This document shows, piece after piece, positions 2,679 through 40,480 of a stretch of DNA of 64,000 nt. Each line of letters starts with the position of its first letter. The first letter of the stretch is position 1. The notes beneath the pieces are model-generated. The model saw nothing but the letters and a program-made list of their open reading frames with translations, was not told the origin of the DNA and searched no databases. Source of the stretch: Thermoplasmata archaeon (GTDB taxonomy: Archaea; Thermoplasmatota; Thermoplasmata; Lutacidiplasmatales; UBA184); assembly GCA_021817605.1 (NCBI GenBank), contig JAKAUN010000009.1, forward strand, positions 62,001 to 126,000, given 5' to 3'. Position numbers and translations under genes: made by a program.

Positions 2679-5117
2679 TCAGGAGGGAGCTTCGGTCGCA
2701 GCAAGACCGAGGCGGGGACCTAGATCGGCAGCGATGCGTTGGGTGGTGCGGATGAGATTGAGTTGGTTACCCAGCGCCAAGGCCACGCCGTAGTATTTGC
2801 GAGCGAGGGGGATGCCCTTCTTCGTGAGCCATACCTCGGCGAGGTAGCAGTTCGCCATCACGAGCAGCTCCGAAGGAGGCATCCGGCCCAGGACCTCGAC
2901 GCTCCTTTCGAGGTAGACGAGCGCCCGGTTTGCGCGGTCCAGGTCGTCCGCCCCGTCGTCCGTCTGACGCAGGGTCGCAGCGCTCAGCGTGAAGAGCGTG
3001 TAGCCCAGGATCATGTCGTTGCCGACCTGCTCCGCGACGGCGATTGCCTGGCGGGCGTAGCCGCTCGCAGCCGTCCACGCGGACTTCTCGATCGCCAGGC
3101 TCGCAAGGCTGCTGAGGGCGTAGGCCAGCAAGCTCACGTACCCGAGCGACTCGGCCTCGGAGCGGATGGCCAGCACGTCGACCTCGGCCAGATCCGTCCT
3201 TCCCTCCTCGAAGTGGGCCCGGGAGCGTGCCATGAGGAGGTTGAGGACCACGTCCGTCCGGTTCGCGCGGCGCGCCCGCGGCAGGGCCGATTCCAGCACC
3301 CGGAGCACGGTGTGCGGCTCTTTGCTGGACGCGGCCAAGCGCGACCAGGCTCCGATCGCCTCAAGGCCGAGGTCCGGGTCCGAGCTCTTCGATAGGTCGA
3401 CCGCTTCCTGGTAGAGCTTGAACGCGGCCTCGCTATTGCCCCGAGCCTCCGCGACCCGGCCTTCGGTCAGGCGAAGCAGGATGCCGAGCCGGCGCGTCGG
3501 CCGAGGAAGCTTGCGCGCCCTCTCGAACTCGACGAACGCCTCGGCGGGTTGGCCTGCCCTCAAAAGCTGCTCCACGATGCCGAGCCGAGCCTCCTCCGCG
3601 AGGGGGTTGCGTTCCCCCGCCTCCGCGATGACGCGGCGAAGCGTCACGATCGCCTCCGCGTTCTCGGCGTGGCGGCGCACGAGGGCAGCCTCCGCCATGA
3701 GCACTTGCAAGCGGCTTGGCCCACGCGGAAGCCCCGCGGAGAGATGCCGGAACGCCCGGCGTAGGCTGTCGGAATAGCCGAGCCGTAGGATGACCTGTTG
3801 GTGCTCGCGCAGCAGCCGCAGGGCTCCGGTGAGCTCCTCCCCCGCGACCAGGTGCTGGAAACGCTCCCGGAGCGCCTCCGGGCGGTGGCTGAGTCCGTAG
3901 AACCGGGCCAGCGCGAGACGGGCCTCCCGCTCGTCCCGGGGGTGCATCGTCTCGAGGACGGCCTTGCGGACGACCTCCAGAGCCTCGACGCGGTCGTTGC
4001 CGCTAGGCTGGAGGACCCCGGTCCGGACCAGGTCCTGGAGCCGGTTGGCGTCCACGCCCGCCGTCTCCCGGACCAGGTCCGCCGGAAGCGGCTCGTTCGC
4101 GAGGGTCACCAGGAGCACCGCGCGGAAGTCGGTGCTCGGGAGCTGCCGGATGACCTCGAGCGGAAGCATTCCGGGCGTGGCTTCGAGGGTCGGATTGGAG
4201 GCGGCCAGCATGAGGAGGAGCGGGGAGCCGAGCGTCGTCTGGTAGATCCGCTCGAACTGGGCGGCGGGCCCGCCCTGCCGGACGATGAGCTCGTGCGCCG
4301 CGACACGGTCGAGTCCCCCGAGGACGAGCCTCCGCGGCGCCGGAGGGAACCCCTCCGACAGGACGACCTCCTGCCCGACGATATAGAACTGGTGGGCGCC
4401 GCGGGGGGCCAGCGACGCCGCAAACGCACCCAGGAACTTGCGCAGATCGGTGGAGGCGAACTGGTAGTCGTCCACGACGCAGACGAGCGGCCGCCGCTCG
4501 AGCGCGCGGCCGACCAGGTCCGCGACCTCCCGTGCGATCGGCTCCCGGGGCAGCTGGGCGTAGTAGGCCATCTGGGGGTTACCCGAGAACGAAAGGACAT
4601 GGGCGAGCCCGGTGACGAACTCCCGGGCAGAGCTCGAGGGGCGTACCGTGAACCAGTACGGGGCCGCCCCGGGCCGCAGCTTGCGCAGATGGTGGGCCAG
4701 GAGCGAGGTCTTCCCGATCCCCGGGGGCCCCTCGATGATCGTCATCGGGGCCTGATCGGCAGCCACCGACGTCAGCTGCTCGAGCTCGTCCTTCCGTCCC
4801 AGGAACGGCTGGGGAGGAATCGGGGCATCGCGGCCCAGCAGAGGGACCGAGCGGGTCTCCCGACGCAGACGGGCGACCCCCTGGGGGGTCACGCGATAGG
4901 TGAGCTGCTTTCGCTGCGCGCCCCGGACGAGCCCCCGCGTGGCGGTCAGGAACCCGTCCCGAAGAAGCCGATCGAGGGGTCGCGACATCGAGCAGGGGTG
5001 GTAGCCGAGGCTCTTGGCGAGCTCTCGTTGGCTGATACCAAAGTGCTCCTCCCCCGATCGGGCGTGGGTCTCGATGTAATCGAGTATCTCGATAGGGAGG
5101 TAGGTCTGGCGACCCAT
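2679..5117 (-). CDS. winged-helix / AAA-STAND ATPase / TPR transcriptional regulator
   Basis: 812 residues in three parts. Residues 1-80 form a MarR/ArsR-like winged helix (ISQRELAKSLGYHP then LDRLLRDGFL). A STAND NTPase follows, with Walker A EGPPGIGKTSLL near 127 and Walker B-like VCVVDDYQ near 213. The C-terminal ~350 residues are Ala/Leu/Arg helical repeats of TPR type (AEAFVEFERARKLPRP, GNSEAAFKLYQEAVDL). This is the plan of MalT/AfsR-type regulators, in which NTP-dependent oligomerisation controls DNA binding. The start at MGRQTYLP was chosen because an AT-rich element lies about 35 bp upstream; the frame runs on to 5162 but would cross the promoter. A 14-bp palindrome (5152-5165) in the divergent promoter is a plausible own operator. 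The ligand is unknown. Confidence 0.8.
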   Translation of the reverse strand: MGRQTYLPIEILDYIETHARSGEEHFGISQRELAKSLGYHPCSMSRPLDRLLRDGFLTATRGLVRGAQRKQLTYRVTPQGVARLRRETRSVPLLGRDAPIPPQPFLGRKDELEQLTSVAADQAPMTIIEGPPGIGKTSLLAHHLRKLRPGAAPYWFTVRPSSSAREFVTGLAHVLSFSGNPQMAYYAQLPREPIAREVADLVGRALERRPLVCVVDDYQFASTDLRKFLGAFAASLAPRGAHQFYIVGQEVVLSEGFPPAPRRLVLGGLDRVAAHELIVRQGGPAAQFERIYQTTLGSPLLLMLAASNPTLEATPGMLPLEVIRQLPSTDFRAVLLVTLANEPLPADLVRETAGVDANRLQDLVRTGVLQPSGNDRVEALEVVRKAVLETMHPRDEREARLALARFYGLSHRPEALRERFQHLVAGEELTGALRLLREHQQVILRLGYSDSLRRAFRHLSAGLPRGPSRLQVLMAEAALVRRHAENAEAIVTLRRVIAEAGERNPLAEEARLGIVEQLLRAGQPAEAFVEFERARKLPRPTRRLGILLRLTEGRVAEARGNSEAAFKLYQEAVDLSKSSDPDLGLEAIGAWSRLAASSKEPHTVLRVLESALPRARRANRTDVVLNLLMARSRAHFEEGRTDLAEVDVLAIRSEAESLGYVSLLAYALSSLASLAIEKSAWTAASGYARQAIAVAEQVGNDMILGYTLFTLSAATLRQTDDGADDLDRANRALVYLERSVEVLGRMPPSELLVMANCYLAEVWLTKKGIPLARKYYGVALALGNQLNLIRTTQRIAADLGPRLGLAATEAPS

Positions 5118-5151
5118 CGTACTTGTGACGGCGTCCCCCCTACTTAGATTT

Positions 5152-5182
5152 ATTTTGTACAAAATTGTGCTTGAGGTTTAAG
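5152..5182. promoter_or_regulatory. perfect 14-bp palindrome and divergent promoters
   Basis: attttgtacaaaat (5152-5165) is a perfect inverted repeat in the 91-bp gap between the divergent starts at 5117 and 5209. It sits in the TATA/BRE zone of the minus-strand regulator gene. A separate TATA-like tttaag (5177-5182) lies 29 bp before the plus-strand ATG at 5209. A dimeric winged-helix protein bound here could control both genes; the adjacent regulator is the obvious candidate. Confidence 0.55.
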
Positions 5183-5208
5183 TACGAAATCAGACAACAA
5201 TCTATCCG

Positions 5209-5583
5209 ATGAGCCGACTCGGGGAGAGCGCGGGATATCTCGGCGGCATCGGGGTAATGCTCGAGGTCGCTAGAGTATGTCCGCGGTGTGGAAAGAGGCT
5301 TTCGGCCTCCCCCTCGGCCTCCGCGCGGCACCTTGCGGGACGCGGGTGCCGCCCGACGGTGTTCGCGGCTCTGCCAGAACGTGACATCCCGACCGCCGAG
5401 CCCGAGGGCGAGGAACCCCCCCCTCTCCCCGCAGCGCAGCGGATCCGGGCGTTCGAGGCCCCCCTACCCACCGCGAGCCACCGTGCCCCCGACGCGTCCC
5501 CCCCGACCCCGGCAGGCCGTGAACACGGACGGGCGCCAAGCATCCCCTGGCTTCCCCCCCCGGATCTAGGAGAGATATTCTGA
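5209..5583 (+). CDS. small protein with CxxC...HxxxxxC zinc motif
   Basis: 124 residues. The N-terminal third contains CPRCGKRLS followed by HLAGRGC, a possible C2HC zinc site. The rest is Pro/Ala/Glu-rich and probably disordered. The ATG at 5209 lies 29 bp from a TATA-like tttaag, matching a leaderless start; ATG 5257 (MLEVARVCPRCG) would keep the zinc site. It is divergent from the STAND regulator and shares its palindromic control region. It ends in TGATG, overlapping the next small frame. No function is known. Opposite-strand frames exist but have unnatural composition. Confidence 0.45.
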   Translation: MSRLGESAGYLGGIGVMLEVARVCPRCGKRLSASPSASARHLAGRGCRPTVFAALPERDIPTAEPEGEEPPPLPAAQRIRAFEAPLPTASHRAPDASPPTPAGREHGRAPSIPWLPPPDLGEIF

Positions 5584-5941: not shown

Positions 5942-6175
5942 ATGGCCGATCGGCGATGCGCGGTATGCGGGGGGCCCACCGAGACCGGGTTCGTGACGAC
6001 CACCAACGGCTCGGGGTTGTTCTGGTCTCACGAGGCGTCGACCACCCGTCTACGCCCCAAAGGCCTCGAGGTGCTGGTAGGTACGGGCTTCGGTGGAACG
6101 TACTCCGCGAACCTCCCCGGGAGCCGCTGCCCGGCGTGCAACACGATCCTTCTGGCCTTGCTGAAGAAACCCTGA
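5942..6175 (+). CDS. small zinc-ribbon protein (DUF6487-like)
   Basis: 77 residues with two knuckles: CAVCGGPTETG near the N-terminus and CPACNTILLALL at the C-terminus. Between them is a tryptophan in GSGLFWSHEA and a Gly-rich segment. This resembles small zinc-ribbon domains in which the first knuckle is followed by a conserved Trp and the second closes the fold. An A-rich run (caaaaaagagata) near 5900-5912 is a plausible promoter about 34 bp upstream. It is convergent with the TldE gene. A structural or adaptor role is likely; the partner is unknown. Confidence 0.65.
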   Translation: MADRRCAVCGGPTETGFVTTTNGSGLFWSHEASTTRLRPKGLEVLVGTGFGGTYSANLPGSRCPACNTILLALLKKP

Positions 6176-38620: not shown

Positions 38621-40480
38621 TTGCGTGATTTCGGACTGATCGGCAACCTCCACACGGCGGCTCTTGTCTCGCGCCACGGATCGATCGACTGGGCCTGCCT
38701 ACCTCGTTTCGCCTCGCCCAGCGTCTTCGCCCGCATCCTCGACCCCGAGAAGGGCGGCTACGCCCGGCTCGCTCCCGTGGGCCCCTACCGGTCGCGCCAG
38801 CGCTACCTGCCGTCGACCTGCGTGCTCGCCACCGAATTCTTCCTCTCCGGAGGGCGACGGCTCGAGCTGCTCGACTTCTTCCCCATTGTCGAGGGGGCCG
38901 GGCCCGAGGGCGCCTCGCTCGTCGTCCGACGCCTGCGCGCCGTCGGTGGCGCGGTGTCGGTCCGCTTCGATTGCCTGCCGGCGTTCGGCTACGCGCTTAA
39001 CCCGCATGCCTGGACGCTCGGCCGGGGTCGGGCGGTGGCACGCGCCGGCGACGCGAGCCTCGAGGTGTCCTCCGACCCGCCCCGCTACGTGGACGGCTCG
39101 CACCTGCGCTCCGAGTTCGATATGGAACCGGGCGACCCGCTCCTTTTCGAGATCGCGTGGGGCCGACGCCCGAAGGGACTCGCCCCGGCCGAGGAACTGC
39201 TCGTCACGGCCAAGCGCTACTGGAGGAGGTGGGCGCACTCCTCCCGGGCCCCCGTCCACCGTGTCGCCCACCGCTGGCATCGCTGGGTGCTGCGGAGCGA
39301 GCTCACCCTCAAGCTCCTCTCGCATGCCGACACCGGGGCGTTCGTCGCCGCCCCGACGACCTCGATCCCCGAATTCCCCGGAGGGGTGCGGAACTGGGAC
39401 TACCGCTACGTCTGGATCCGCGACGCGGCGTTCGCCGCCCAGGCGATGCTGCGTCTCGGCCACGAGCGCGAGGGTCTCGCCTTCCTGCGCTGGGTGCTCC
39501 TGAGGCTGAGGGACGACCCGATCCATCGTCTGCGGGTCGTCTACGGCGCGCACGGAGAGCGCAACCTCGCCGAGCACGAGCTCTCCCACCTCCAGGGGAT
39601 GTGGGACTCGCGCCCGGTGCGCGTGGGCAACCGCGCCTCCCAGCAGTTCCAGCTCGACATCTACGGCGAGCTGCTGGATGCCGCTGCCCTTCTCGACAAG
39701 GTCGACCCCGCGTTCGTCCGAGAGAACTGGAACGAGGTGCGATCGATCGCCGAGGTCGTCGTGCGGCGTTGGCGGCTTCCCGACCGGGGGATCTGGGAGG
39801 TCCGCGGACCGCCCCAGCAGTTCGTCCACTCCAAGCTCATGGCCTGGGTCGCCCTCGACCGCGCCACCCGCCTCGCCCGGCGCCACGGCAGGACCGGGGA
39901 CGTGGAGCGCTGGTCGAACGAGGCACAGAAGGTCCGCGCCTGGATCCTTTCCGAGGGGATCGACACCTCCCGGGCGACGTTCCGCCAGGCCGCCTCCTCG
40001 ACCGCGATCGACGCCGCGAACCTCCGCATTCCGCTGGTGGGTTTCCTCCCGTTCGACGACAAGGTGGTGCAGGGAACGATCGAGGCCGTGGTCCGCGAGC
40101 TCGCGGACGGCCCGTTCGTCTACCGCTATCGGGCGCCGGACGGGCTCCCCGGGGCCGAGGGAGCGTTCCTGCCCGCGTCGTTCTGGCTTGTCGAGTGCCT
40201 GGCGCGATCGGGACAGACCGAGCTCGCGCTGCGTTTCTGGCGGCGCCTCCTCGGGGCCGGCAACGGCCTCGACCTGTTCAGCGAGGAGTATGCCTCCGCA
40301 TCGCGGACGATGCTCGGCAACTTCCCGCAGGCGCTCACGCACATCGGCATCCTGCGCGCCGCCGTGGCCCTGGGAGAGACGACCGGACAACCCGTGGCCG
40401 ACCCGGAAGAACCTCTCCAGGCTGAGCAGAGCGGGTCGCTCGCGCCCGGGACCACGGGAGCGAATCTGCTCCCGCTGTAG
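38621..40480 (+). CDS. GH15-family glucoamylase/trehalase-like hydrolase
   Basis: 619 residues. The N-terminal beta-sandwich begins LRDFGLIGNLHTAALVSRHG and SIDWACLPRF. The (alpha/alpha)6 catalytic part has NWDYRYVWIRDAAFAAQAML (catalytic acid region, about residue 258) and GLDLFSEEYASASRTMLGNF (catalytic base Glu in SEEY, about 553). No signal peptide, so intracellular. Breaks alpha-glucans or trehalose; in Thermoplasma several GH15 proteins of this form act as trehalases, so trehalase is a serious alternative. The start is TTG 38621, which precedes the conserved LRDFG; there is no nearby ATG. It is divergent from the zinc protease. Confidence 0.88.
   Translation: MRDFGLIGNLHTAALVSRHGSIDWACLPRFASPSVFARILDPEKGGYARLAPVGPYRSRQRYLPSTCVLATEFFLSGGRRLELLDFFPIVEGAGPEGASLVVRRLRAVGGAVSVRFDCLPAFGYALNPHAWTLGRGRAVARAGDASLEVSSDPPRYVDGSHLRSEFDMEPGDPLLFEIAWGRRPKGLAPAEELLVTAKRYWRRWAHSSRAPVHRVAHRWHRWVLRSELTLKLLSHADTGAFVAAPTTSIPEFPGGVRNWDYRYVWIRDAAFAAQAMLRLGHEREGLAFLRWVLLRLRDDPIHRLRVVYGAHGERNLAEHELSHLQGMWDSRPVRVGNRASQQFQLDIYGELLDAAALLDKVDPAFVRENWNEVRSIAEVVVRRWRLPDRGIWEVRGPPQQFVHSKLMAWVALDRATRLARRHGRTGDVERWSNEAQKVRAWILSEGIDTSRATFRQAASSTAIDAANLRIPLVGFLPFDDKVVQGTIEAVVRELADGPFVYRYRAPDGLPGAEGAFLPASFWLVECLARSGQTELALRFWRRLLGAGNGLDLFSEEYASASRTMLGNFPQALTHIGILRAAVALGETTGQPVADPEEPLQAEQSGSLAPGTTGANLLPL

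Follow-up and report, generated by a model that had tools for sequence, protein, structure and literature searches.

In the stretch of archaeal DNA analysed here (the window: 64,000 nt of a Thermoplasmata archaeon genome, contig JAKAUN010000009.1, positions 62,001 to 126,000 of the forward strand), a perfect palindrome lies between two back-to-back genes, one encoding a regulator of the STAND ATPase type and the other a small protein with a zinc-type CxxC motif. We found that this site is conserved across orthologous promoters, stands at nearly fixed distances from two TATA-like boxes and is restricted to this one locus. Judging from these sequence comparisons, the palindrome probably serves the STAND-zinc gene pair alone, as a private operator to which the regulator binds through two copies of its winged helix. 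The main features, in window positions, are the following.

2679..5117, minus strand: STAND regulator P0001, 812 residues, with an N-terminal winged helix, an AAA_16/NOD ATPase core and a C-terminal TPR-like sensor.
5152-5165, no strand: perfect 14-bp palindrome ATTTTGTACAAAAT, between the back-to-back STAND and zinc-motif genes.
5151..5166, no strand: putative operator, the 16-bp frame of the consensus TATTTTGTACAAAATA, delimited by conservation among orthologous promoters.
5209..5583, plus strand: divergent small CxxC protein P0002, 124 residues, with an N-terminal GGIG-x-ML block, a C-x2-C motif and a variable proline-rich C-terminus.

The original prediction had described a perfect 14-bp palindrome in the divergent promoter. 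The palindrome is there, at 5152-5165, and it is perfect; as a measure of the whole element 14 bp falls short, since the full consensus spans 16 bp and the 14-mer is only its inner part. On the minus strand the copy in the window reads AATTTTGTACAAAATA, with perfect symmetry across the inner 14 bp and an unpaired T/T at bases 5151 and 5166; it departs from the consensus by one outer base. Its centre lies 41.5 bp upstream of the STAND ATG at 5117 and 50.5 bp upstream of the zinc-motif ATG at 5209. An alternative, longer STAND reading frame opening with TTG would begin inside the palindrome, and we took the ATG at 5117 as the start because the starts of the relatives align with it. ATTTTGTACAAAAT is the sole match in the window at up to 2 mismatches and the sole match in the 1.75-Mb genome at up to 3. 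A bare 14-bp palindrome is unremarkable in this DNA, as the 64-kb window contains 16 perfect palindromes of at least 14 bp. The longest of the window is an 18-bp one, GTCCGCGAGCTCGCGGAC, at 40091-40108.

We examined 78 genomes of the same genus for the STAND gene and the operator. Forty-five distinct upstream regions were obtained from tblastn matches that started within query residue 6, exceeded 40% identity and retained at least 60 upstream bases. Named records gave 54 loci, nearly all from Thermoplasmata metagenome-assembled genomes (MAGs), including UBA184 and Candidatus Lutacidiplasma silvani; 52 of these loci were used, L174 and L188 being excluded because they begin inside the protein. 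Apart from L139 and L144, which come without upstream DNA, all the named loci used (50) contain the operator, and the seven of them that were new brought the total to 45 + 7 = 52 promoters. Pieces that are C-terminal or lie at contig edges (L010, L017, L018; G012, G083, G099) are not among the 52. The upstream DNA of L178 and L179 is nearly identical, so the promoters are distinct and not all independent. The Lutacidiplasmatales are known from acidic environments and have genomes of high G+C content, about 69% for the type (PMC9287336); the G+C content of the window is 64-73% in 2-kb steps.

Results showed that TTGTACAAA is invariant in all 52 distinct orthologous promoters, at loci whose full-length regulators are 39-53% identical to that of the window, and that the perfect 16-mer TATTTTGTACAAAATA occurs in 24 of them. 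Mean pairwise identity was 0.99 for the 10-bp core and 0.91 for the 16-mer, followed by 0.81 and 0.77 for the two TATA-like boxes, 0.45 for the spacer and 0.34 for the STAND leader, where composition alone would give 0.27. Loss of the palindrome from relatives that keep the gene pair, named beforehand as the observation that would speak against a regulatory site, was looked for; every one of the 52 promoters keeps TTGTACAAA. An invariant 9-bp core amid drifted spacers indicates that strong selection can act on the regulon of a single gene pair. When the 45 regions were aligned without gaps on the operator, the core showed no change; counting from the centre, pairs 7 and 8 were kept in 41-45 of 45, and pair 6 varied on both sides (T in 27/45, A in 34/45). 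This roughly symmetric tolerance to change, in which pair 6 varies and pairs 7 and 8 are kept, is what would be expected of a site read by a two-fold protein. The half of the operator proximal to the STAND gene was somewhat more constrained in the same alignment.

Searches for the site elsewhere in the genomes led back to the same locus. TTTGTACAAA occurred at 44 sites in 41 of the 78 genomes, against none for the reversed-pattern control, and at 41 of these sites a STAND start follows on the same contig, 40.5-45.5 bp from the centre of the site. In G085 the site follows the zinc open reading frame (ORF) on a contig that ends just past the operator, and the start of the STAND gene is found at the end of a second contig; counting this split locus, 42 of the 44 sites are in the STAND-zinc promoter. 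The two located elsewhere, G061:C12 and G022:C12, were each seen in a single genome of the 78. The former (L117 2691-2700) stands 64 nt before an ORF that by eye resembles TFB, a single case and probably chance; the latter is near an ORF that by eye resembles a transposase. The shorter 8-mer TTGTACAA is depleted, with 212 copies compared with 361 for its reversed control, and so hides no excess of sites; its two other copies in the window's genome fall inside long reading frames. A dispersed regulon was rejected on these two counts, the 2 of 44 TTTGTACAAA sites found off the promoter and the TTGTACAA copies numbering fewer than the control. The check suggested in the original prediction, a search of the genome for the palindrome upstream of other genes, returned none. 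A conserved operator between both promoters that is not dispersed is the pattern of a local autoregulator, and this is the pattern observed. An exact 23-letter pattern of the module had no match among viral contigs (a narrow test, the pattern fitting 20 of the 52 known promoters), and among the literature matches listed for the exact operator string the subjects were, by title, unrelated.

The operator and the STAND gene also come and go together. A STAND match (E 1e-20 or better) was found in 47 of the 78 genomes: 40 contain the exact 10-mer, four (G030, G064, G079, G092) contain ATTGTACAAA, and three (G012, G083, G099) hold only C-terminal pieces without the promoter. The operator is thus kept in 44 of 44 STAND genomes with a readable promoter. 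Among the 31 genomes without a STAND match it is absent from 30, the exception being G014, where the site precedes a STAND start truncated because the contig stops there. The Fisher p value for this co-occurrence is 8e-14, uncorrected for relatedness. When only the 25 genomes with at least 90% completeness and at most 5% contamination were considered, the STAND gene was present in 15 and the exact 10-mer in 13. G026, counted among the 30 without the site, shows the zinc gene at the edge of a contig and probably carries the module in unassembled form.

The order tldD/E-like gene, zinc gene, STAND gene and deoxyhypusine-synthase-like gene recurs in most loci of sufficient length, with families assigned by BLAST and gene names by eye. 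We probed 11 STAND-less genomes for the outer neighbours, with G018 added as a STAND-bearing comparison. G001, G002, G063 and G084 have both outer neighbours on one contig, separated by about 420-1,090 bp in which neither TGTACA nor a STAND match occurs; for the zinc protein these four intervals gave a single match, at chance level (G001, E 0.24). For the remaining seven, a neighbour was absent, lay on a different contig or stood where the contig ends; in G080, one of these, the 1.9 kb past tldE also shows no trace of the module. A reading of the palindrome as an att site or as a hairpin of an RNA was considered: the locus keeps its neighbours, and the operator lies upstream of both presumed transcription starts.

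Regarding the promoters, three putative elements flank or overlap the operator; their TATA and BRE (TFB recognition element) assignments rest on conservation.

5141..5148, minus strand: STAND TATA-like box TCTAAGTA, 2 bp beyond the operator frame, its centre about 27 nt upstream of the start codon.
5149..5156, minus strand: putative BRE of the STAND promoter, proposed from position and A-richness, overlapping the proximal half of the operator.
5177..5184, plus strand: TATA-like box TTTAAGTA of the zinc-motif gene, 10 bp from the operator frame, its centre about 29 nt upstream of the ATG.

The operator had been correctly placed against both TATA-like boxes in the prediction, and the arrangement is nearly rigid. 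The STAND box keeps one common spacing in 47 of the 52 loci, is 1 bp closer in four and is unmatched by the pattern rule in one, while the zinc-gene box keeps one common spacing in 46 and is unmatched by the rule in six; an earlier promoter-pattern pass had kept 47 sites. The loci L166-L168 form a subgroup in which the STAND box is 1 bp closer to the operator. From the operator centre to the STAND start codon the distance is 40-45 nt across loci, and STAND transcription would start at or near that codon. Within the putative BRE, position +8 is A in 45 of 45 aligned regions, and +9, which lies beyond the symmetric site, is A in 40 of 45; its counterpart at -9 is unconserved.

The regulator itself supplies a candidate reader for such a site.

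4848..5099, minus strand: winged helix of P0001, residues 7-90, with predicted helices at 7-19, 30-37, 45-53 and 78-90 and wing strands at 57-62 and 71-76.

That the regulator carries a winged helix, as had been suggested, was borne out by Pfam, AlphaFold and Foldseek, which place it at the N-terminus. Pfam gave weak MarR-type winged-helix matches over residues 24-60, and by sequence the best solved structure for the first 97 residues was the PadR-type Rv3488 (5zhc, E 5e-4). The AlphaFold model of the first 103 residues (mean pLDDT 80.4) shows a winged helix-turn-helix fold with a wing and a C-terminal helix. Foldseek matched it to 5zi8 (PadR Rv3488), 4rgu (MarR) and 5x11 (PadR with operator), with E values of only about 1e-3; several of the fold matches were solved with DNA. 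The window's domain missed the curated family cut-off (MarR_2, 24.1 bits compared with 27), and the PadR/MarR assignment therefore holds at superfamily level only; the PadR model matches 17 of 35 members at E 0.01. Across these 35 sequences, whose winged helices are 51-72% identical to the window's, the motif HPCSMSRPL (residues 40-48) stands out, with H40 and S43-L48 invariant in 35 of 35 and P41 and C42 nearly so.

Behind the winged helix, Pfam identified AAA_16 above its cut-off (E 3.2e-9) and weak TPR matches. PH0952 (6mfv) was the best solved structure by sequence, with E 4e-8 over residues 103-424. It was also the best Foldseek match (6mfv_A, E 1.6e-16) to the AlphaFold model of the full protein (mean pLDDT 81.7, pTM 0.61), with TM scores of 0.43/0.52 over the multi-domain chain and a root-mean-square deviation of 10.6, so that the angles between domains differ. 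In 29 orthologues the P-loop residues G130, G133, G135 and K136 and the Walker B residue D216 are invariant, and D217 is nearly so. These motifs, together with the NOD and superhelical TPR folds of the model, identify P0001 as a predicted STAND ATPase with a TPR sensor. In G076:C50 (L172) and G085:C7 (L100) the STAND frame is broken by an in-frame TGA in each, in G076 as two overlapping pieces, with the operator intact; these breaks could be recent decay or assembly errors.

The divergent zinc-motif gene that the prediction had placed beside the regulator was found at all 52 loci, 45 by a strict rule and seven with SGI or GAI replacing GGI. This check used the first in-frame start, which puts some starts at 40-49 nt. 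In 39 of 45 tested ORFs the CxxC motif is followed by H after 2-3 residues. A search for P0002 in 61 of the 78 genomes gave 30 matches besides itself (32-63% identity), 29 of them adjoining the module and one, in G026, at a contig edge. Pfam and family searches returned no family match for this protein, which is variable outside its short N-terminal block and proline-rich in its C-terminal part, by eye probably disordered. In four loci (L047, L058, L062 and L123, of G018, G028, G024 and G090) it is shorter, 82-97 residues, with the N-terminal block reduced to GGIGTML and followed by CPACG.

In the scheme that follows, we infer which protein binds and in what stoichiometry, whether it activates or represses, where transcription starts and that an inducer acts. 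The two-fold symmetry of the operator argues for a protein that contacts DNA through two equal domains. The STAND winged helix is the preferred candidate because it is the one clear DNA-binding domain of the locus and its recognition region varies hardly more than the site. Two such helices, in a dimer or as two protomers of a larger assembly, would bind the two half-sites. Archaeal sites that abut a TATA box or overlap a BRE usually block TFB, and archaeal activators usually act from just upstream of the TATA-like box of their target. The bound regulator would cover the putative BRE beside its own TATA box and limit access of TFB, making autorepression most likely; standing just upstream of the zinc-gene TATA-like box, the same complex would most likely activate the zinc-motif gene, or else co-repress it. 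Through its TPR domain the regulator would detect an inducer, and this would switch the ATPase core and, with it, occupancy or contacts at the operator. The interpretation offered in the original prediction, likely self-control with the neighbour as a possible target, is supported by the results. Taken jointly, autorepression with activation of the zinc-motif neighbour is our tentative choice, held at somewhat less than even confidence; co-repression of both genes seems rather unlikely, and other combinations of signs quite unlikely. It is possible, although doubtful, that the ATPase, whose class is known to multimerise into large signalling hubs, is a dedicated switch of one bidirectional promoter, a hub anchored by one palindrome of fixed geometry that turns its own gene down and the zinc-motif gene up, with the zinc-motif protein feeding back as inhibitor or sensor, and with site, regulator and partner gained and lost as one module.

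Several observations weigh against binding by the regulator's own winged helices. The halves of the operator are unequal, -5 being T in 41 of 45 regions and +5 being A in 45 of 45. Compensatory change between -6 and +6 was rejected, the changes being mostly one-sided, with 29 of 52 promoters T/A. No covariation ties the operator to the winged helix, because both are nearly invariant, and co-occurrence of site and gene would hold for any binder dedicated to the locus; many of the 78 genomes, moreover, are incomplete. On the promoter side, the AT profile upstream of 21 start codons of the window shows a weak rise near -30 only, and these are too few to define TATA or BRE. Finally, STAND proteins are regarded as working in multimeric form (PMC6468293). 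A lone dimeric palindrome is also unlike the repeated non-palindromic sites bound by MalT.

Alternatively, the operator might belong to a different regulator, one with its gene at another locus and no conserved target besides the STAND-zinc pair. Nothing computed ties the operator DNA to a particular protein, and some relatives (G018, G028, G024) do encode related winged-helix proteins, with weak matches within residues 7-99. However, the site is missing in 30 of 31 STAND-less genomes, which makes such a regulator less economical than the adjoining winged-helix protein, and P0001 matches only itself at E 1e-3 in the window's genome; we consider it unlikely. More improbable is that the zinc-motif protein binds the operator, autoregulates and also controls the STAND gene. 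It is encoded at every locus and its CxxC motif could bind zinc, but it belongs to no family found, its C-terminus is proline-rich and probably disordered, and so variable a protein contrasts with a nearly invariant site. That the palindrome does no more than serve the core promoter, with TFB or TBP reading it as a strong BRE or an upstream element and no regulator involved, seems very improbable: the proximal half does overlap the putative STAND BRE, and the proximal side is the more conserved (+9 A), yet a general element would recur before other genes, which the operator does not, and the distal half lies outside the BRE with its TTGT equally invariant. Chance, for which the 16 palindromes of the window might be cited, is refuted by the constancy of TTGTACAAA between spacers that have diverged and has practically nothing left to it.

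Operators between divergent genes are of a known kind, and binding by the STAND winged helix may be set beside four known systems. PH0952 of Pyrococcus horikoshii, an archaeal TPR-type STAND protein, has the same layout of N-terminal DNA-binding domain, STAND ATPase core and TPR sensor; the winged helix of P0001 appears PadR/MarR-like rather than ArsR-like, and the portion of the PH0952 description at hand names no operator. MalT of Escherichia coli has a C-terminal LuxR-like DNA-binding domain and binds repeated non-palindromic sites in several promoters. In contrast, P0001 carries its DNA-binding domain at the N-terminus and has a single candidate palindrome, at a single locus. What MalT shares with P0001 is a STAND core with a TPR-type sensor controlling transcription (PMC6468293). 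CopR of Pyrococcus furiosus, proposed as a dual regulator, has a semi-palindromic binding site flanked by the TBP/TFB sites of the divergent genes copR and copA; CopR stimulates transcription there in vitro, a report on a relative finds repression, and the sign at copA differs between reports (PMC7830388). The likeness is that of a site between divergent promoters in which one gene is the regulator. CopR differs in having a TRASH metal-sensing domain and several targets, whereas here the operator is private and the regulator is a STAND ATPase. A Pfam scan of P0001 gave no TRASH domain, its C-terminal half being TPR-like. The classical PadR box has spaced half-sites, in contrast to the compact operator found here. 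PadR/LmrR autoregulators are stand-alone dimers, whereas this domain is the N-terminus of an 812-residue ATPase. LmrR, of PadR type, binds a palindrome as a dimeric winged helix at its own promoter and at its target (PMC4534193). Among the matches listed in our searches of one open-access library there was no operator of an archaeal TPR-type STAND regulator, which is not proof of absence. The site provides a precise candidate operator for a class with a solved structure, and its nearly fixed geometry relative to two archaeal promoters allows one to ask how one bound regulator may repress one core promoter and activate the opposite one.

Two further observations concern the loci. JOPF056 (L149/L168) and JOPF349 (L147/L150) have two STAND-zinc loci each, with the operator in all four. 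The double STAND loci of G100/JOPF056 with the same operator were left out as evidence: the upstream DNA of L149 and L150 is identical, and MAG contamination is possible. In the window, a 77-residue CxxC...CxxC protein (MADRRCAVCGGPTETG...) is encoded at 5942-6175 on the plus strand, between the zinc-motif gene and the tldD/E-like pair; we place it outside the module because a similar ORF adjoins tldE in the STAND-less genome G002 (L247 194-418, minus strand). At the place of the module, this genome has an ORF (L247 538-1179, minus strand) that by eye resembles a molybdopterin-dependent oxidoreductase.

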